IMG/VR virus record: IMGVR_UViG_3300043100_000037
Location: 1-40,681 of that record
DNA from: a virus
Length of the DNA stretch: 40,681 bases
Direction: 5' to 3' (one strand)
Both the position numbers and the translations under genes were made by a program. Positions 7,661 through 40,681 of this stretch are shown one piece after another. Every line of letters begins with the position of its first letter. The stretch's first letter is position 1. The notes under the pieces were generated by a model, which saw only the letters and a list, made by a program, of their open reading frames with translations, searched no databases and was not told the DNA's origin.

Positions 7661-9264
7661 TGGCTTCCATTCCCTTACCCGCTCTCGGTGTGCAACCACC
7701 CCAAGTCCAGAACCCCATCCAGGGGTATCGCGACTTCATGGCGATCAAATCGGCGCAGCAGAACCAACAGTTACAACAGCAGCAGATGGCCGCCAATCAG
7801 CAAGAACAGCAGATTCGCGCCCAACAGATCGCGGACCAGCAGGCCCGGACTGCGGCGATGAAGGACGCCGATCCCACTTCTCCGACTTATTTCGAGGACA
7901 TGGCAAAGGGTGTCTTGAAGTATGGCGGATCGGCGGATGCGGCCCAGCAGGAAGCGCAGAGAGGCCTCGGGATCAAGAAAGCGATCTCCGACATCGCCGC
8001 GACCGATGCAACTACGGGCTCTAAGAATTTGCAAACCTTCATTGACGCCCACAAGGCCGTCGGCGACGCCCTGGAGGGCTTGGTAGACCCAAAGACGACC
8101 CCTGACGACCAACTGCACGCCGCTGCGACTCAGACGGTCAACGATTTAACCAAAAACAAAATCCTCGATCCCGGGTCAGCCCAGAGGGCCATGCAGATCA
8201 TTCAGTCAACGCCTGATCCAGCGGCCCTGCGAACTGCCATCGACGGAGTTGCAAAGACTTCGATGGGCGCGAAGGCGGTAGCCGAGCAGCAGCAGGCGCA
8301 ACAGGCTCTCAAAGAGAGCACAGCGAAGACTGGTGAAGCTGAAGCCACCACCGCCGAGAAGCAAGCCACCGCCCAGTGGTACAAGGACCATCCCGGCACC
8401 GGCGCACCTGGCGTGCCCGCAGAAATCGTGCAGCAGTCGGACTGGCTGAAAAATAATCCCGGAAAAGGCCCGTCGGATTTTCTCGCCTGGAAGGCGAAAC
8501 AGGCTCCGCTCGCCACGTTCAACCTGCAATCGGGATTGCTCACCGACCAGGCGAAGGACATGGCGGCCGAGAATTACTTCCAGACCGGCCAGCTCCCCGC
8601 GGGCGCGCGTAGTCCGGCCATGATTGCGCAGATCATCGACCGAGCCGGGCAGCTCCATCCCGGCGGAAGTCTCGCCGGCAACAAGGCGGCCTATGACGCG
8701 AACAAGAAGTCTTACGACAATGTGACCGGCACACTCGACACGCTCACCGCATTCGAGAACACCGGGTTAAAGAATCTGAAGCAGTTCACGGATCTCGCGG
8801 AAAAGATTCCCGACACCGGAGTTCCCTGGCTCAACACGCCGGTGCGCCTGCTGAATCGCAACTTAGTCGGCGATGCCAACATGGCGGCCGTCGAAGCCGC
8901 GCGCAGTGTGGCTCTCCGCGAAATCGCGCGCGTGACCAACGATCCGAAGCTCTCAGGGCAGTTGACCGATAACGCGCGTGGCGAAGTCTCTGGCTTTAGT
9001 CCTCAGAACGCCACGTTGCCGCAAATCAAAGCAGTCGCCCAGGTCCTCCAGCAGGACATGGCCAACGTGCATCAGTCGCTCGCCGCACAAAAAGCCGACA
9101 TCGGAAAGAGGCTGGGGATCGCGGAGCAACCGGCGGCGACCACGACACAATCAGGCGGCGGAGGCGGAGCCAAGGTCGGAGATCTGATCGTGCAAAACAA
9201 TAAAACCTTCAAGGTCACGAAGGTTGACGCGAACGGGAAGCCCGTCGCCGCAGTCCCACAATAA
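7660..9264 (+). CDS. Probable internal virion / DNA ejection protein
   Basis: The product is 534 residues. It has a Gln-rich coiled-coil N-terminus (about 25-70), long Ala-rich helical stretches, a conserved-looking middle around AAENYFQTGQLP and MIAQIIDRAG, and a Gly-rich linker before a short C-terminal beta domain (GDLIVQNNKTFKVTKVD). It is not recognised at the family level, but its place as second of three consecutive proteins of this type matches P22 gp20. It starts at ATG 7660, overlapping the previous stop by one base. Confidence 0.7.
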   Translation: MASIPLPALGVQPPQVQNPIQGYRDFMAIKSAQQNQQLQQQQMAANQQEQQIRAQQIADQQARTAAMKDADPTSPTYFEDMAKGVLKYGGSADAAQQEAQRGLGIKKAISDIAATDATTGSKNLQTFIDAHKAVGDALEGLVDPKTTPDDQLHAAATQTVNDLTKNKILDPGSAQRAMQIIQSTPDPAALRTAIDGVAKTSMGAKAVAEQQQAQQALKESTAKTGEAEATTAEKQATAQWYKDHPGTGAPGVPAEIVQQSDWLKNNPGKGPSDFLAWKAKQAPLATFNLQSGLLTDQAKDMAAENYFQTGQLPAGARSPAMIAQIIDRAGQLHPGGSLAGNKAAYDANKKSYDNVTGTLDTLTAFENTGLKNLKQFTDLAEKIPDTGVPWLNTPVRLLNRNLVGDANMAAVEAARSVALREIARVTNDPKLSGQLTDNARGEVSGFSPQNATLPQIKAVAQVLQQDMANVHQSLAAQKADIGKRLGIAEQPAATTTQSGGGGGAKVGDLIVQNNKTFKVTKVDANGKPVAAVPQ

Positions 9265-19371: not shown

Positions 19372-20358
19372 ATGGCAACAGCCACAGCATACCGCAACTT
19401 GCCGGAGTCGGAAAGTGGAAAATTGTCTCCGCTCGCCCTCGAAAGAATCGAGGCCTCGAATCTCAAGCCCGGCGTTGCGAGAACCCTCCGCTACCTCGTC
19501 ATCCGCAGCCAGTACGGCCCCGATCTCTGGGCTCCCACTTTCAAAGTAAGCGTCGATGCGGGCTTTCACTACCGCACCGTGCAGCGCCACATCGACAAAC
19601 TGGAGCGGCTGAAAGTTTTGAAGTTGAAGCACTCGGCCAACACCCACGTCAACGGAAAGATTCGCCGCTCGGCAACCTACGTGTTACACCCGGAGTCGGC
19701 GAAGCACCTGACACCGCGCCAGAATTTCGAGCAGTGGAAAAAGTGCAACGGGCGCGAGACTCCGCTGCGCTTCCGTCCGCAGGCAGCCGCCCCGATCACC
19801 CCGATTGCCGCGCCCACAGCCGATCAACGGCCTCACTTCCCGAGCGACGACGTGAAATCGCGCAAACTCACGCGCGATGAAAAATCTGCCCTGGTGCGCC
19901 GCGTAGTCTCTCTCACCAGGGTAGCTCCAACTCAATCGCAGCCCGTTCCCCCGCCCGAAGTCGAGTCCGAGTCCAACTGGTCGCGCGTCCTGAAAGTGCT
20001 GGAACACAAAATCAACCGGCACTCGTTTGAAACCTGGATGCGGCCCACCCGCGGCCACCACGAAGTCGGAGGCGTTCTCTACGTCTCGGTTCCGACGCCG
20101 GACTTCCTGCACATCGGCGACAAGCACAAACTTCTGCTCGCCGACGCCCTCCGTGAATTGAGGATGCCCTACAGCGCCGTCCAGTTCATCGCGCCGGAAC
20201 AGGTTAAGGCTCAGCCCGCGATGAGCAAACGGGCCGCGCTCGCGCAAGCCTGCCAAGAGTTGAGCACCCCACAGCGCCGCATTTCGATCGAGGACGGAAT
20301 TGTCGCGTTGCGGCTTGCGGGGTACTGGAATTTCGAGGACGCGGACAAGGGGCCGTGA
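19372..20358 (+). CDS. Putative replication initiator: helix-turn-helix plus DnaA domain I-like fold
   Basis: The product is 328 residues, starting at ATG 19372 after AAGAGG. Residues about 30-105 look like a winged-helix DNA-binding domain (FKVSVDAGFHYRTVQRHIDK followed by a beta wing). A Pro-rich linker follows. Residues about 203-275 resemble the DnaA N-terminal domain (WSRVLKVLEHKINRHSFETW then GVLYVSVPTPDFL), used by DnaA for self-assembly and helicase loading. No AAA+ domain is present. With iterons upstream and no phage polymerase or helicase in the genome, it probably recruits the host replisome. This role is inferred. Confidence 0.75.
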   Translation: MATATAYRNLPESESGKLSPLALERIEASNLKPGVARTLRYLVIRSQYGPDLWAPTFKVSVDAGFHYRTVQRHIDKLERLKVLKLKHSANTHVNGKIRRSATYVLHPESAKHLTPRQNFEQWKKCNGRETPLRFRPQAAAPITPIAAPTADQRPHFPSDDVKSRKLTRDEKSALVRRVVSLTRVAPTQSQPVPPPEVESESNWSRVLKVLEHKINRHSFETWMRPTRGHHEVGGVLYVSVPTPDFLHIGDKHKLLLADALRELRMPYSAVQFIAPEQVKAQPAMSKRAALAQACQELSTPQRRISIEDGIVALRLAGYWNFEDADKGP

Positions 20359-22906: not shown

Positions 22907-24898
22907 ATGAAAGCTGTCGTCGCTTCGTCGCTCGTGTTTCTGCTTCTCTCCGTCGCCTCCGCGCAGGACCTCGTCTCCTCCGCGCTCCGCGTCTCCCTGA
23001 ACTTGAACGGCACCTGGCAGTACGTTCTCAATCAACCGCAGTCTTCGATTCCCACCGCCGGCTGGCAGCCGATGCGCGTGCCCTCAGCGCCATACATCGA
23101 CGGCACCAGCTCCGTCTGGTACGAAGCTCCGCTCAACATTCGGCCGAACTGGATCTCCGCCGGCCGGCGATTCTTTTTGGAGCTTGAGAAGTGCGGCCAC
23201 TACTGCGCCGTCTACGTGAACGGCTCTTTCGCCGGCGATCACTATGGCCAGTTCTCACCCTACGAAGCCGAGATCACTCCGTTCGTCGTCGCCGGCGCGA
23301 ACGAAATCGAGATCTACGCGCACATCGCCGACGACACCTACACTCGTCGTGGGGCGACCCTCGATCAATCGAAATGCCCTCCGGCGAATCCGAACTGTCT
23401 CGCGAATTCCTACCGGCCATCTTCGATCACCGACGTCCAGCGCGACTGGGTGGGCATCATGGGCGACGTCACCTTCTCCTGGCGCGGATCTGCGAACGAA
23501 TACATTTCCGACGTCCAGGTCATCACCAGTTTCCAGAACGGCACACTCACTGCGAACGTTACGGCCGTCAACGCCGGAGCCGCGGCCACCGTGAGCGCCT
23601 CAGTGATGGATGGATCGACCGACGTGCTCGATCTTCCCGCGGTGCCGATCGTGAATGGATCCGCGCAGCTTACGGCGCCCTGGGCGAATGCCATTCTCTG
23701 GCAGCCGGGAAACCCGAAACTCTACCAGCTGCACACCTTCTTGACCGATGGCCAGCTCGCCGACGAACGCTACGATCGTTTCGGTTTCCGTGAAGTCTGG
23801 GTCGAAGGAAAAACAATTCTGCTGAACGGGATCCCGCTCTGGATGACGGGCGACTACGAAGTCAAATTCTCGCCCACTCGCCTTTTGAGCGATCGCCGGC
23901 CGCTCGCGATGCTGTTCCACATCCAGCAGCAATCGGGCTTGACGGCCGCGGAATTCCATTGGGACGATGCCGGCCGGGAGTTTCTCGATCTCGCGGACGA
24001 AATGGGGATCCTGGTCCTCGGCGTTTTTTATTGCAATGGCCCCGACGTCACCCAGGCCCAGGTCGACAACCAGGCCGACTGGCTCGCCTGGATGCAGGCA
24101 ACGGCCACCGAGTGGGCACAAGCTGAGCGGAACCACCCCTCGATCGTGCTCTGGCGCCCGATGGACGTTGTGCCTCCAGGATCCGGACACCAGGCCACAG
24201 TTTTTCCCGCGATCGCCGCGGCGGTGCACCTGGTCGACACTACGCGGCCGATCGCCGATGGCAGCGACGTCGACACCTGGGCGCAGAGTCTCGTCGATCC
24301 GAACGATCCCACCGAGTGCGACGACGGATCCGCCTTCGCCCAGAAGCTCGCTGGTGAAACCAAGCCGCTGCTGATCAAAGAGCTGTACGGTTTTGGACTT
24401 CCCTGCGCCCCAGCCACCATCAAGACGCTTTACAACACCGCCTGGATGGGCGGCGGCGCCGGCATGATCGTGCAGCAGCTCGGGCTGTTTGGCACACCAC
24501 CCTTCACGCCCACCTGGTTCTCTCAAAGCGGAATTGGAAACCGAGCGACAGCCGCCGGCGACATGCCGGACTGGATCACCGAGCAGTGGACGGCGACAAA
24601 TTGGAGCCAGGAATTCGCCGCGCTCTACGCCGCGGATCCGGGTCTCGGTTTGCCGAACACCACCCCACTCGACGGCGAATATCAGGCCGCAGATTTCCCT
24701 CTTCCCTTTTCAAGTGAGCAGCTCGCGGTGTTTCTCGTGCCGCCGGCACGCACGGGAATCCCGGTGGGTGTGATCGCATCCGGCGGATCTGTAGATCTCT
24801 TCACCGAGCAAGCTGGGGAGAATACGCTGAGCTACTGGAACGGCGCCCAGGACGTTGAGCAGTCGGTAATCGCGCCGGCGCCGGGGCCACTCAAGTGA
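22907..24898 (+). CDS. Secreted GH2-like glycoside hydrolase homologue, acid/base residue missing
   Basis: The product is 663 residues. The signal peptide is MKAVVASSLVFLLLSVASAQ. A GH2 sugar-binding domain (LNLNGTWQYVL; AVYVNGSFAGDHYGQFSPYE) spans about 30-150, an Ig-like domain about 195-285, and a TIM-barrel-like domain follows (FGFREVWVEGKTILLNGIPL; REFLDLADEMGILVLG). In active GH2 enzymes NHPS...W is followed by GNE; here it reads NHPSIVLWRPMDV, with Val421 where the catalytic acid/base Glu belongs. The nucleophile-type Glu492 in KPLLIKELYG is kept. The protein may be inactive or use another mechanism. AAAGGGG lies before the start. A secreted sugar-active protein on a small phage genome is unusual. 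Confidence 0.75.
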   Translation: MKAVVASSLVFLLLSVASAQDLVSSALRVSLNLNGTWQYVLNQPQSSIPTAGWQPMRVPSAPYIDGTSSVWYEAPLNIRPNWISAGRRFFLELEKCGHYCAVYVNGSFAGDHYGQFSPYEAEITPFVVAGANEIEIYAHIADDTYTRRGATLDQSKCPPANPNCLANSYRPSSITDVQRDWVGIMGDVTFSWRGSANEYISDVQVITSFQNGTLTANVTAVNAGAAATVSASVMDGSTDVLDLPAVPIVNGSAQLTAPWANAILWQPGNPKLYQLHTFLTDGQLADERYDRFGFREVWVEGKTILLNGIPLWMTGDYEVKFSPTRLLSDRRPLAMLFHIQQQSGLTAAEFHWDDAGREFLDLADEMGILVLGVFYCNGPDVTQAQVDNQADWLAWMQATATEWAQAERNHPSIVLWRPMDVVPPGSGHQATVFPAIAAAVHLVDTTRPIADGSDVDTWAQSLVDPNDPTECDDGSAFAQKLAGETKPLLIKELYGFGLPCAPATIKTLYNTAWMGGGAGMIVQQLGLFGTPPFTPTWFSQSGIGNRATAAGDMPDWITEQWTATNWSQEFAALYAADPGLGLPNTTPLDGEYQAADFPLPFSSEQLAVFLVPPARTGIPVGVIASGGSVDLFTEQAGENTLSYWNGAQDVEQSVIAPAPGPLK

Positions 24899-31441: not shown

Positions 31442-31472
31442 CGGCTTCACACTACGTTGTTTTGTGAACTTT

Positions 31473-31506
31473 TTTGATTGTTTTTGATTTCTGATGGGAA
31501 AGCAAA
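31473..31506. repeat. Recombinase-associated site 1
   Basis: TTTGATT (31473-31479) and TTTGATTT (31483-31490) are direct copies. The second is mirrored by AAAGCAAA (31499-31506; 7 of 8 complementary) across an 8-base spacer CTGATGGG, which contains the recombinase ATG. The layout of short inverted arms around 8 bases resembles a tyrosine-recombinase core site. Confidence 0.5.
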
Positions 31507-32030
31507 GCCTCGATCGGGAGCAAATCCTCGCGCTGCTCGGCGCCGCGAAAGCCAAGCGGGAGCGCGACTACCTGATGATCTGGCTGGCCTTCTGCCACGG
31601 ACTGAGAGCGTCGGAAGTGGTTGCACTGACAAGAAATAACTTCGACGGCGAGCACATCACCGTGCAGCGGCTGAAGGGATCTCTGAAGACAACCCAGCGC
31701 CTGGTCGAGCACGCGGATCCGCTCCTGAACGGCCGAAAAACCCTGTTTGATTTCCTTTGCTTATTCAGGGGAAATCAAAGACTGTTCCCGATCACCCGCG
31801 AGTGGTTCTGGCGCCTGGTCCAGGAGTACGGGAAAGCCGCCGGGATCCCCAAACACCTCCGCCACCCGCATGTGCTGAAGCACTCGATCGCCATGCAAAC
31901 CATTGAGCAGGCGGGAATTCAGAACGTGCGCCAGCATCTCGGTCACAAATCGATTTCTTCGACCGGCGAATACTTGAAGGTCACTGACGCCGCCGCCACC
32001 GCCGCCGTCCAGGGTGCTCTCGCTGTTTGA
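31494..32030 (+). CDS. Minimal tyrosine recombinase (catalytic domain only)
   Basis: The product is 178 residues, close to FimB/FimE size and far shorter than arm-type phage integrases (about 330-400). Active-site residues visible are Arg38 (CHGLRASE), a Lys near 61-64, His126-V-L-Lys129, His151 (LGHKS) and Tyr160 (GEYLK). The second arginine of the H-x-x-R motif is replaced by lysine. No core-binding or arm-binding domain precedes it. The start ATG 31494 has no ribosome-binding site and lies inside the spacer of repeat site 1. It may integrate the phage, invert DNA, or resolve genomes. Confidence 0.8.
   Translation: MGKQSLDREQILALLGAAKAKRERDYLMIWLAFCHGLRASEVVALTRNNFDGEHITVQRLKGSLKTTQRLVEHADPLLNGRKTLFDFLCLFRGNQRLFPITREWFWRLVQEYGKAAGIPKHLRHPHVLKHSIAMQTIEQAGIQNVRQHLGHKSISSTGEYLKVTDAAATAAVQGALAV
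31746..31779. repeat. Recombinase-associated site 2 (inside the gene)
   Basis: TTTGATTTCC (31746-31755) and GGAAATCAAA (31770-31779) are perfect 10-bp inverted arms around 14 bases, within the recombinase coding sequence. The spacer is longer than in the other two sites. Confidence 0.45.
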
Positions 32031-32058
32031 TTCTTTTGATTTAGTAGGCGAAATCAAA
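32026..32058. repeat. Recombinase-associated site 3
   Basis: TTTGATT (32026-32032) and TTTGATTT (32035-32042) are direct copies. The second is mirrored perfectly by AAATCAAA (32051-32058) across the 8-base spacer AGTAGGCG. The layout repeats site 1 at the other end of the gene, overlapping its stop codon. The 8-base spacers of sites 1 and 3 differ. Confidence 0.5.
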
Positions 32059-32484: not shown

Positions 32485-32964
32485 ATGCCCGAGAAAAAAG
32501 GCCGCGGCGGATCTCGCAAGCACCCCAAGGATTGCACGTGTGGGAAGTGCCCCCAGGTGGGCAGGAAAAAAGCCGAGCGGCCCACCAACGCAAACGTCGC
32601 CGCAAAAGTTCTCGCCGAGGCGAAAGCGGAAAGGCTTTGGGGCTCGCTGATCGAACTCGAATGCAATCGGCTCGGGATCGATCCGGAAACCGGTGTAGTG
32701 GTTGAGCTGAGTAAGAAGGAAAAGAAACAGAACGCAGACGAAGGCGTGATCAGCGGCCCAGACTACCAGGGCAGATTCTCAATCATCCCGCTTACGAACG
32801 TGTTGCGCTATCTCGAAGATCGGGCCTACGGCCGGCCAATGGAGAACTCCACCATCAACCACCTGCACGACAAGCCGCTCGACGTGAACATGAACCTCAC
32901 TCTTTCCGAACGCATGTTGAAAGCCCTGGAGAAAGCAGAGCAACGTGTCAGCCGTCGCAAATAG
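32485..32964 (+). CDS. Putative terminase small subunit
   Basis: The 159-residue product directly precedes and overlaps the large terminase gene by 20 bases. The N-terminus is basic with CTCGKC (about 18-23). The C-terminal half has LTNVLRYLEDRAYGRPMENS then DVNMNLTLSERMLKALEKAE, a pattern seen in small subunits that bind pac DNA. No classical helix-turn-helix is evident. The call rests on position and the C-terminal pattern. Confidence 0.65.
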   Translation: MPEKKGRGGSRKHPKDCTCGKCPQVGRKKAERPTNANVAAKVLAEAKAERLWGSLIELECNRLGIDPETGVVVELSKKEKKQNADEGVISGPDYQGRFSIIPLTNVLRYLEDRAYGRPMENSTINHLHDKPLDVNMNLTLSERMLKALEKAEQRVSRRK

Positions 32965-34489
32965 CTTCGATTGGCAGCAGGCCATGACCGACAGGCTGAT
33001 CGAGCTGCAACACGATCCCCTGGGCGCCGTGCTCTACGGATTCCCCTGGGGCGAAGGCGAGCTTGCAAATTACAGTGGGCCGCGCGAGTGGCAGGGCGAA
33101 GTTCTCGACTATATCGGCCGCTGGTTCAGTAATTCTCTCGCCGGTGAGGATCGTAAGCGGTTCGGAGCCGAAACGCGCGACAAGGTGTGTCGCATTGCCA
33201 TCAGCTCAGGTCAAGGTCCAGGCAAAACCACTCTCGGTGTCTTTGTTGGCTGGTGGGGCAATTCCACATTCCTTGATTCAATGGTGCGCGTGACCGCGAA
33301 CACCGATCGCCAACTCACCACCGTCATGCAGCCGGAATATTCCCGCTGGTATCGCCGTGCATTGAACAGCGCCGACTGGCAGGTCCACACCCAAGCCATC
33401 AAGGCCGCGGATGAGCGTCACGAGGACACCTGGCGCCTGGACCTGATGCCCTGGTCCGCCGACAACCCGCAGGCGTTCGCGGGAAAGCACAACGCCGGCC
33501 GGCGAATGATCTTCATCTTTGAAGAGGCCAGCGAGATCTCCGACGAAATCTTCCGCGTCGCCAACGGCGCCCTCACCGACGAGAACACAGAGAAGCTGTT
33601 TCTCATCATCTCGAATCCCACGCGCAACACCGGCTACTTCTACGAGGCCGTGTTCGGACATCAACGCGATCGCTGGAAGAGTTGGGTGATTGATTCGCGC
33701 GACGTGGAAGGCTGCAATGTTGATGAGATCAACGGCTGGCTCTCGGAATGCGAAGGCAACGATGACGCCGACTATTTCAGGGTCCGCGCGCGCGGTTTGT
33801 TCCCAAAAGGCGCCGCCGGCCAGTACATCGACCTCGACACCATTCGCAAAGCCCAGGACCGCCCAGCTCGCGCACTGCCCGATGATCCACTGATTGCCGG
33901 CACCGACTTCGCCTGGGGCGGAGCCGATGACAACGTGGTGCGCTTCCGCAAGGGTCTCGATGCGCGATCGATTCCGCCGATCAAAGTGAAAGGCGAGTTC
34001 ACCCGCGACCCCGCGGTAATGGTGGGGAAACTGGCGGATGTTCTAAGCGCGACCTACAACGGCGAGAAGATCGCCATGATGTTCGTCGATTCCGCCGGCA
34101 TCGCCGGCCCGGTGGTAGCCAGGCTGCGCGCGCTCGGTTTTACCAACGTCACGGAAATCAACTTCGGCGCCCATTCCCCGGATACGCACTACGCCTACTT
34201 CCGCGATTTTATGTGGGGAAAATCGAAGCAGTGGCTGGTGGACGGCGGAGCGATCGACAAAGATCCTGGTCTCGCCGCGGATCTCGCCAAACCGATGTTG
34301 GTGAGCGATCCCAAACAGCGCGTGAAGCTCGAATCCAAAGAAGTCATGCGGGCACGGCTGAAGAAGTTGGGAATTGAATCTAGTTCGCCGGACGACGGAG
34401 ACGCTCTGGCCCTGACTTTTGCCATGCCCGTGGCGCCGGCGAAACCCAAGCCGCAGACCCGCAAGCCGCATGTGAGTGCGTGGACCTAA
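32945..34489 (+). CDS. terL: Terminase large subunit
   Basis: The 514-residue product has the terminase ATPase and nuclease parts. Walker A is the variant SSGQGPGKTT at about 88-97, Walker B is MIFIFEEAS at about 188-196, and the RuvC-like nuclease acids appear in GTDFAWGG (about 319), MFVDSAG (about 379) and DDGDALAL (about 480). It powers DNA translocation into the procapsid and cuts the concatemer. GTG 32945 starts inside the small-subunit gene; ATG 32984 is an alternative. Confidence 0.92.
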   Translation: MSAVANSFDWQQAMTDRLIELQHDPLGAVLYGFPWGEGELANYSGPREWQGEVLDYIGRWFSNSLAGEDRKRFGAETRDKVCRIAISSGQGPGKTTLGVFVGWWGNSTFLDSMVRVTANTDRQLTTVMQPEYSRWYRRALNSADWQVHTQAIKAADERHEDTWRLDLMPWSADNPQAFAGKHNAGRRMIFIFEEASEISDEIFRVANGALTDENTEKLFLIISNPTRNTGYFYEAVFGHQRDRWKSWVIDSRDVEGCNVDEINGWLSECEGNDDADYFRVRARGLFPKGAAGQYIDLDTIRKAQDRPARALPDDPLIAGTDFAWGGADDNVVRFRKGLDARSIPPIKVKGEFTRDPAVMVGKLADVLSATYNGEKIAMMFVDSAGIAGPVVARLRALGFTNVTEINFGAHSPDTHYAYFRDFMWGKSKQWLVDGGAIDKDPGLAADLAKPMLVSDPKQRVKLESKEVMRARLKKLGIESSSPDDGDALALTFAMPVAPAKPKPQTRKPHVSAWT

Positions 34490-40252: not shown

Positions 40253-40681
40253 ATGAAAAACAAACTCTTCAAAATCGCGCGCGTCCTGTTCTGGTATTTC
40301 ATCTTCGACGCTCTGGTCCTCGGCTACGCCGGCTTTCTGCCCGGTGTGCAGATGGCCGGAGCCCAGACGCTCGTTCCCATGACCACCTTGGGCGCGGCCA
40401 TCACCTCGAAATCCACCACGTTCATCAACGTGGCGTCCTCGACCGGCATGACGGCCGGCGTGACCTTCCTCTACGTCGACGGGGAGTTCATGTTCGTGAA
40501 CGCGGTGCTCTCAAACGGCAACCTACAAGTCCAACGGGGAGCTGCGGCGGGCACTGACGGAACCCTGCACAACAGCGGGGCTCTGGTGTTCAACGGACCG
40601 GCGACGGCATTTCAGGCATTCGATCCCACGGGCAGCTGCACCCGCGCGAATGTTTTGTATCTGCCGTGGATCAACCCGAAG
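40253..40681 (+). CDS. Secreted protein after the coat gene, N-terminal part
   Basis: The frame runs off the window edge and continues in phase at base 2 (stop at 697) for 327 residues in all. Residues 1-38 contain a basic start and hydrophobic core (KIARVLFWYFIFDALVLGYA) and end in MAGAQT, a plausible signal-peptidase site. The next stretch (TTLGAAITSKSTTFINVAS, then VQRGAAAGT) is a beta-rich domain. Position suggests a head decoration or accessory protein; the export-like segment argues for an envelope location. The family is unknown. Confidence 0.75.
   Translation, partial: MKNKLFKIARVLFWYFIFDALVLGYAGFLPGVQMAGAQTLVPMTTLGAAITSKSTTFINVASSTGMTAGVTFLYVDGEFMFVNAVLSNGNLQVQRGAAAGTDGTLHNSGALVFNGPATAFQAFDPTGSCTRANVLYLPWINPK
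40540..40681. repeat. Right copy of 142-bp terminal repeat
   Basis: Matches bases 1-142 except at 40543 (T against C) and 40555 (T against G). Both differences lie in the first 16 bases, at the extreme left edge of the window. Confidence 0.9.

Follow-up and report, generated by a model that had tools for sequence, protein, structure and literature searches.

The locus analysed here raises the question of what a tyrosine recombinase of only 178 residues does in a phage, and on which DNA site it acts. The window, i.e., the whole stretch of DNA that was studied (40,681 nucleotides), is of phage origin: it encodes a P22-like portal (Pfam match) together with terminase, scaffold, and major head proteins (PHROG matches). 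A 126-bp repeat is shared by the two window ends (17-142 and 40556-40681), as would be expected if the genome, about 40.5 kb, is complete and either circular or terminally redundant. The recombinase gene (int) occupies 31494..32030 on the plus strand, with an ATG at 31494 and a TGA stop at 32028-32030. It is followed on the same strand by a small ORF (32485..32964), which is called small terminase by position and size only, and by the gene of the terminase large subunit, TerL (32945..34489; phrog_2, E 1.1e-29). For the small ORF itself, neither Pfam nor PHROG gave a match; ORFs related to it stand before terL in other loci. Elsewhere in the window, positions 22907-24898 code for a glycoside hydrolase family 2-like protein with four Pfam GH2 domains over the cut-off, possibly an auxiliary gene or a tail enzyme, and positions 19372-20358 for a replication-initiator-like protein (Pfam DnaA_N, the DnaA N-terminal domain, E 5.5e-7; O-like in PHROG).

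Relatives were collected by protein and profile scans of viral contigs and by one scan of genome contigs, which gave about 50 close ones, two of them in Acidobacteriota metagenome-assembled genomes (MAGs). Duplicate contigs (L039, L043, L044, and L053) and distant loci (L046, L076-L078, L081, and L083) were removed before counts were made; L079, L080, L082, and L084-L105 never entered.

The recombinase consists of a catalytic domain

The PF00589 domain covers residues 5-165 of the recombinase (E 3.6e-18). The AlphaFold2 model (mean pLDDT 94) aligns over its full length to the catalytic domains of XerA, XerH, lambda Int, and Cre, the best structural matches being XerA (Z 18.6), XerH bound to difH (18.3), and an integron integrase (2a3v; 18.2), with Cre at about 15.9. 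Since the whole length is accounted for by catalytic domains, core-binding and arm-binding domains are absent, in agreement with the first-pass annotation of this DNA. The same annotation had noted H-x-x-K in place of H-x-x-R, and H126-x-x-K129 is indeed read in the sequence. Residues R38, K61, K129, H151, and Y160 are invariant in all 45 aligned recombinases, with lysine at the second arginine position (Arg-II) throughout. A classification paper (PMC8138268) describes recombinases as having a core-binding domain, and calls the RKHRH pentad plus Tyr otherwise strictly preserved. The 178-aa protein belongs to PF00589 by catalytic-domain sequence and fold; it departs from the simple tyrosine recombinase layout (core-binding plus catalytic) by the absence of the N-terminal domain, and from the full pentad by the lysine, the other residues being present.

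The motif is H-x-x-R in 14 of the 26 wider relatives inspected and has lysine in the other 12; lysine at Arg-II is thus a recurrent natural state. A keyword search of one open-access library found no paper on an H-x-x-K tyrosine recombinase. We infer, with moderate confidence, that the 178-aa protein is catalytic despite the substitution.

A core of inverted arms lies upstream of the gene

Between the preceding gene and the repeats at the int start codon lies a 23-bp sequence overlooked by the first-pass annotation, TTCACA-N11-TGTGAA (TTCACACTACGTTGTTTTGTGAA; 31446..31468, plus strand). Its 6-bp inverted arms surround an asymmetric 11-bp centre, and its conservation and covariation lead us to propose it as the binding and crossover site. 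Relatives have the same 23-bp layout with other outer bases (GTAACA, GTCCCA, GAGACA, TTTACA, and others). In 42 hand-curated cores from 46 loci (L061, L067, L068, and L144 have none), positions 1-4 pair with positions 23-20 in 40, 31, 37, and 40 cases, while 27.8, 20.7, 14.4, and 26.1 are expected from column make-up (0/5000 permutations at each position). Position 5 pairs in 42/42 cores and hardly varies. Positions 6-11 show no excess of pairing, and their polarity is conserved.

Because the curated cores had been picked by eye, the pairing test was repeated with an anchor on the inner 13 bp only and a leave-one-out matrix. In 46 loci (L003 and L051 have no upstream sequence and were dropped both here and from the spacing count below), a mean of 4.30 of 5 arm pairs was obtained, versus 1.39 in the outer-flank control. 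The blind scan picked the curated core in 39/46 loci, and missed or changed it in seven. No second copy of the core was found at one mismatch or fewer in the window or in the loci searched, L036 aside, whose true core the automatic pick had missed.

In L040, a second half-core-like sequence, AGTTCTGTCACC, lies at about 370-390, about 20 bp upstream of the core, and is possibly the remnant of a rearranged site. In L143 (contig G583:C66, about 8360-8600), the core has the opposite orientation to int, and composites of the TTTGATT type follow in reversed order at a greater distance upstream. This region belongs to a 12.7-kb element bounded by RNase P RNA repeats and has the look of a rearranged copy. 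In the G477 and G510 contigs, the end of a gene similar to the ArdC gene of G498 (described below) is found upstream of the recombinase, and a core-like repeat downstream.

Outer arm bases covary with one helix of the recombinase

The covariation between core bases and recombinase residues was analysed by mutual information and nearest-neighbour tests in 40 loci (L040 and L054 are outside alignment A3). Out of the five top covarying columns (of 146 variable ones), core positions 1, 3, and 4 have three, four, and three, respectively, within residues 100-112. These are residues 107, 111, and 104 for position 1, residues 103, 101, 104, and 108 for position 3, and residues 106, 103, and 110 for position 4. 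Position 2 is weaker, with only residue 101 from this stretch in its top five, and positions 6-18 have between 0 and 2. According to DSSP, the residues in question fall in helix 102-115 of the model, the last helix before H-x-x-K; codons 100-113 (31791..31832, plus strand) encode most of this predicted DNA-recognition helix. A C at core base 3 goes with Arg, Glu, or Lys at residue 103 (10/10, versus 0/30 for the others), a C at base 4 with Gly or Gln at residue 106 (7/8 versus 0/32), and a T at base 1 with both Glu or Gln at residue 111 and Arg or Trp at residue 104 (8/8 versus 0/32).

To control for kinship, neighbours of 60% identity or more were removed before arm bases were predicted. Six helix residues, chosen after covariation ranking on the same data, then predicted 3.02 of 4 arm bases, compared with 2.00 for the rest of the protein, at most 2.66 for six random columns (300 draws), and 2.2 for random pairs. 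A scan with 13-residue windows, which involved no such choice, placed the starts of all of its best eight windows at 96-103. On a tree built without the helix, the helix/base traits changed 7, 5, and 3 times; since well-supported branches hold only one independent co-change pair, a sign test on this tree is without power. Because the outer arm bases track helix 100-112 better than they track other parts of the protein, the sequence at 31446-31468 is, as far as covariation can tell, very probably the recombinase's own binding site.

In Cre, helix J residues 259 and 263 set specificity and contact bases, according to PMC7438526. Equating helix 100-112 with helix J rests on the order of structural elements, as the sequence alignment with Cre (hhalign/MAFFT) is unreliable in this region.

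Covarying arms would also be produced by the stem of an intrinsic terminator (hairpin plus T-run) of the preceding gene, with TTTGATT as AT-rich background, and CTTTTTTG or a similar sequence does follow the core in many relatives. Yet covariation ends at 5-6 bp, the centre of 11-13 nt with conserved bases would make for a weak stem, and the T-run is absent from the core-like repeats of chromosomal homologues. A terminator also does not explain why arm bases track a recombinase helix, and we consider this explanation hardly credible.

TTTGATT composites flank the gene

The start codon of int lies within a composite of two direct half-sites, an 8-bp spacer, and an inverted half-site (31473..31506, plus strand), which reads TTTGATT GTT TTTGATTT CTGATGGG AAAGCAAA. 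A second composite in the same orientation overlaps the stop codon (32026..32058) and reads TTTGATT CT TTTGATTT AGTAGGCG AAATCAAA. Both are as the first-pass annotation had described them. TTTGATT occurs 10 times in the window, versus 4.5 times expected, and 7 of the 10 occurrences are at the recombinase gene; the arrangement TTTGATT-N0-20-AATCAAA occurs three times, versus 0 expected (100 shuffles). In 48 loci, composites were scored at the 5' end of the gene in 28, at the 3' end in 16, and inside the gene in four, so the sites at the gene ends withstood a check on relatives that had been set beforehand. Away from the gene, only two composites were found in the 718,229 bp of these loci.

The 3' site of the closest relative (77% identical), 8-bp spacer included, is the same save for one base, and its flanks differ. 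In L003, the arms of the 3' composite have changed together with length constant; in L070, L072, and L061, TTTGATT half-sites are missing from both gene ends. TTTGATT starts 4 bp past the core in 33 loci and 5 bp past it in two (35 loci with both elements; 11/46 were not scored). At the 5' end, half-sites of the TTTGATT/TTTGCTT types pair as A-T in 22 loci, A-G in three, C-G in three, mixed-T in two, and C-T in one; at the 3' end, the pairings are A-T in 16, C-G in three, and A-G in one. Coupling of the half-sites across a site is only partial. In its right half, the 5' site doubles as coding sequence for a conserved Leu-Ser-Lys.

The composites had been suggested to be either attP-like or self-regulatory. 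They were rejected as the crossover site, as their spacers differ within the genome and their half-sites stay nearly constant while the core changes; simple excision of the gene between them is not to be expected, for the reason of differing spacers that had already been given. Being nearly constant while the core arms change, the TTTGATT sites look like accessory or regulatory sites. A perfect 10-bp inverted repeat inside the gene (31746-31755 and 31770-31779; 31746..31779, plus strand) is present as had been reported. As a site it is unsupported, because its DNA counterpart is found only in the nearest relative (L001/L028) and its codons give conserved F-D and N-Q pairs; composites in the middle of the gene were picked by script in 4/48 loci. 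It is likely a by-product of codons.

The same arrangement could be expected of a recombinase-fold DNA-binding regulator like MrpR or SroF, with the core and TTTGATT sites as operators for int and for terminase or late genes. The core and 5' array are at the int start, and the 3' array immediately precedes the terminase genes. Repressors with a recombinase fold are known (PMC10516654), PDB entries 9rgl and 9rd5 match the model at Z 12.5 and 12.0, and Arg-II is replaced. MrpR, however, has lost most catalytic residues, while R38, K61, H151, and Y160 are invariant in 45/45 of the proteins studied here. Repressor operators recur, whereas the core is single-copy and TTTGATT composites are almost never found elsewhere; in some chromosomal homologues, moreover, the core-like repeat is downstream of the gene. 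We regard a regulator as improbable.

The module adjoins terminase genes

Out of 40 loci with more than 4.5 kb of downstream sequence, the module lies directly upstream of terminase genes in 36. A TerL like that of the window or of the G583 prophage was found within 3.7 kb in 22/40 loci; among the other 18, a large ORF was scanned in 17, and a terminase-family match was obtained in 14. The module thus holds its position even though the terminases that follow it are divergent. A keyword search of the same open-access library revealed no paper on a Cre-like recombinase beside a terminase among the top matches listed. Such a fixed position would also be expected if the arrays were part of a packaging start (pac/cos) and the recombinase acted at genome ends during packaging, but the islands G498 and G583:C66 have no recognised packaging gene among the ORFs listed, and this role is very unlikely.

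Some relatives carry separate integrases

Were the recombinase the phage integrase, the core would be attP, and a host sequence would share its centre. The core does lie beside int, the usual place of attP, and the minimal protein is the only PF00589 match, and the sole site-specific recombinase found, in 14/20 near-complete phage records, window included; serine recombinases were absent from 21 virus records. In the other six records, there is a second PF00589 match in a longer frame (302-422 aa).

Contig G583:C236 is a prophage. It is bounded by two 42-bp copies of a tRNA-Met end, at 972 and 38200, host genes follow on the right, and an integrase of 374 aa is encoded next to the tRNA; the minimal recombinase and an intact palindrome lie inside the prophage. 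Four more chromosomal elements have boundary repeats, at tRNA-Met, tRNA-Arg, tRNA-His, and RNase P RNA, and in each a PF00589 protein of 386-422 aa adjoins one repeat. Of the 13 chromosomal contexts viewed (G583:C236, G583:C66, and G749 among them), five could be seen to have flanking repeats and an integrase at the boundary. One island, G498, has an ArdC anti-restriction gene (L162, 17969-19570) directly upstream of a 213-aa H-x-x-K recombinase, and a SAM-I/IV riboswitch (L171, 13304-13420) lies within the stretch between the tRNA-His repeats of G480.

No convincing second copy of the phages' own cores was found in the two MAGs that hold them. The inner core of one subtype matched 19 places in 399 genomes and the reversed control 10, and the phage itself was the only place where the arms were palindromic. 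The window's core was found in 0/150 genomes at three mismatches or fewer. Ten large ORFs upstream of int in five contigs show no clear host gene. A tRNA-type attachment site was also rejected: the window contains no tRNA, and T-arm-like motifs beside int were absent from the relatives. The attP-like part of the first-pass proposal is not supported, in that no attB-like copy was found in these searches and the mapped boundaries of relatives carry another, full-length integrase. Given these boundary integrases in one prophage and four islands, the second recombinase in 6/20 records, and the lack of an attB, the minimal recombinase is, judging from relatives, probably not an ordinary integrase; an integrase acting at the core is an unlikely reading.

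Proposed role of the module

Against this background of conservation, covariation, a helix-base code, terminase linkage, and separate integrases in relatives, all obtained in silico, our best single guess is a self-contained Cre/lox-like recombination module for cyclisation or monomer formation, to which we give a probability of about 0.47. It would consist of the catalytic-domain-only recombinase and its own lox/dif-like core directly upstream of the gene. For this protein we infer DNA binding and catalysis with lysine at Arg-II: two protomers would bind the inverted core arms through helix 100-112, and strand exchange would take place in the asymmetric centre. The TTTGATT arrays may be accessory or regulatory sites for a DNA-binding partner or for a second surface of the recombinase; their overlap with the start codon and constant spacing from the core could link recombination to expression. 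As there is one core per genome, the useful reaction would be one between two phage genome copies. Terminally redundant linear DNA, a dimer, or a concatemer would be turned into a circle or monomer, as by P1 Cre-lox, rather than integrated.

Several observations count against the cyclisation reading. Lysine at Arg-II in all 45 proteins could mean poor or no catalysis, and the minimal protein is the sole PF00589 match in those 14/20 records, with no serine recombinase, so that it may yet be the integrase of the window phage. The well-supported branches offer one independent co-change pair and the cores were picked by eye; neither a two-core molecule nor a recombinant junction was seen.

A broader proposal, in which our doubts outweigh our confidence, is that a second, non-integrative recombination system is common in Acidobacteriota phages. 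A natural catalytic-domain-only recombinase would work with lysine at Arg-II and read its site through one helix, by a code that links residue 103 to base 3, residue 106 to base 4, and residues 104, 107, and 111 to base 1. In phages that are otherwise divergent, it would stand ahead of the terminase genes and act on DNA that is packaged or concatemeric to yield circles or monomers; accessory TTTGATT arrays, in fixed phase with the core, would gate the reaction. If true, this would provide a relative of Cre that is half its size and domain-free, together with dozens of recombinase-site pairs from nature, and site choice by tyrosine recombinases, a long-standing question, could be tested directly on natural variants. 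The annotation of such small phage proteins as integrases could then be wrong; their function may be to cyclise genomes or to form monomers beside packaging. The universal lysine raises the question of whether the arginine at this position is truly needed.

Comparison with known systems

MrpR of SPbeta and SroF of phi3T likewise represent phage use of the recombinase fold to bind DNA elements. MrpR keeps its core-binding domain and has lost most catalytic residues; the window protein is the reverse, with only Arg-II replaced. Its core is single-copy, and composites away from the gene number two in 718 kb, unlike an operator repeated across a phage genome.

FimB/FimE-type invertases are proteins of about 200 aa with the same fold, and flip a segment between two inverted sites. 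The core, unlike theirs, is single-copy in the window and the relatives searched, with no pair of inverted sites. The NCBIfam models PRK09870 and PRK09871 ("tyrosine-type DNA invertase"; 200 and 198 positions), which we take to be FimB/FimE, score 49 and 47.5 bits against cut-offs of 221 and 222.

The XerC/XerD/XerA and XerH recombinases with dif/difH match best, both in fold and by profile (E 2.4e-21 for archaeal Xer, PDB 4a8e), and share a dif-like palindromic site. Unlike them, the window protein is not chromosomal, is without an N-terminal domain, and scores far below NCBIfam equivalog cut-offs.

Cre of P1 has the same tyrosine recombinase fold (Cre chains match the model at Z about 15-16). 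The window protein differs in having no core-binding domain and lysine at Arg-II, and its core differs from P1 lox in the shorter arms, the surrounding TTTGATT arrays, and the terminase linkage. In contrast to P1, ParA was not found in 19/20 records; with ParA of the family searched in only 1/20, a plasmid-prophage life like P1's is not supported. The P1 record places half of lox at 1-17 and cre, a "cyclization recombinase", at 436-1467, likewise a short inverted-arm core near the gene. The window module resembles Cre/lox in its phage setting, in its one core per genome, and, judged from covariation and the helix-base code, in an inverted-arm core apparently recognised by the recombinase itself.
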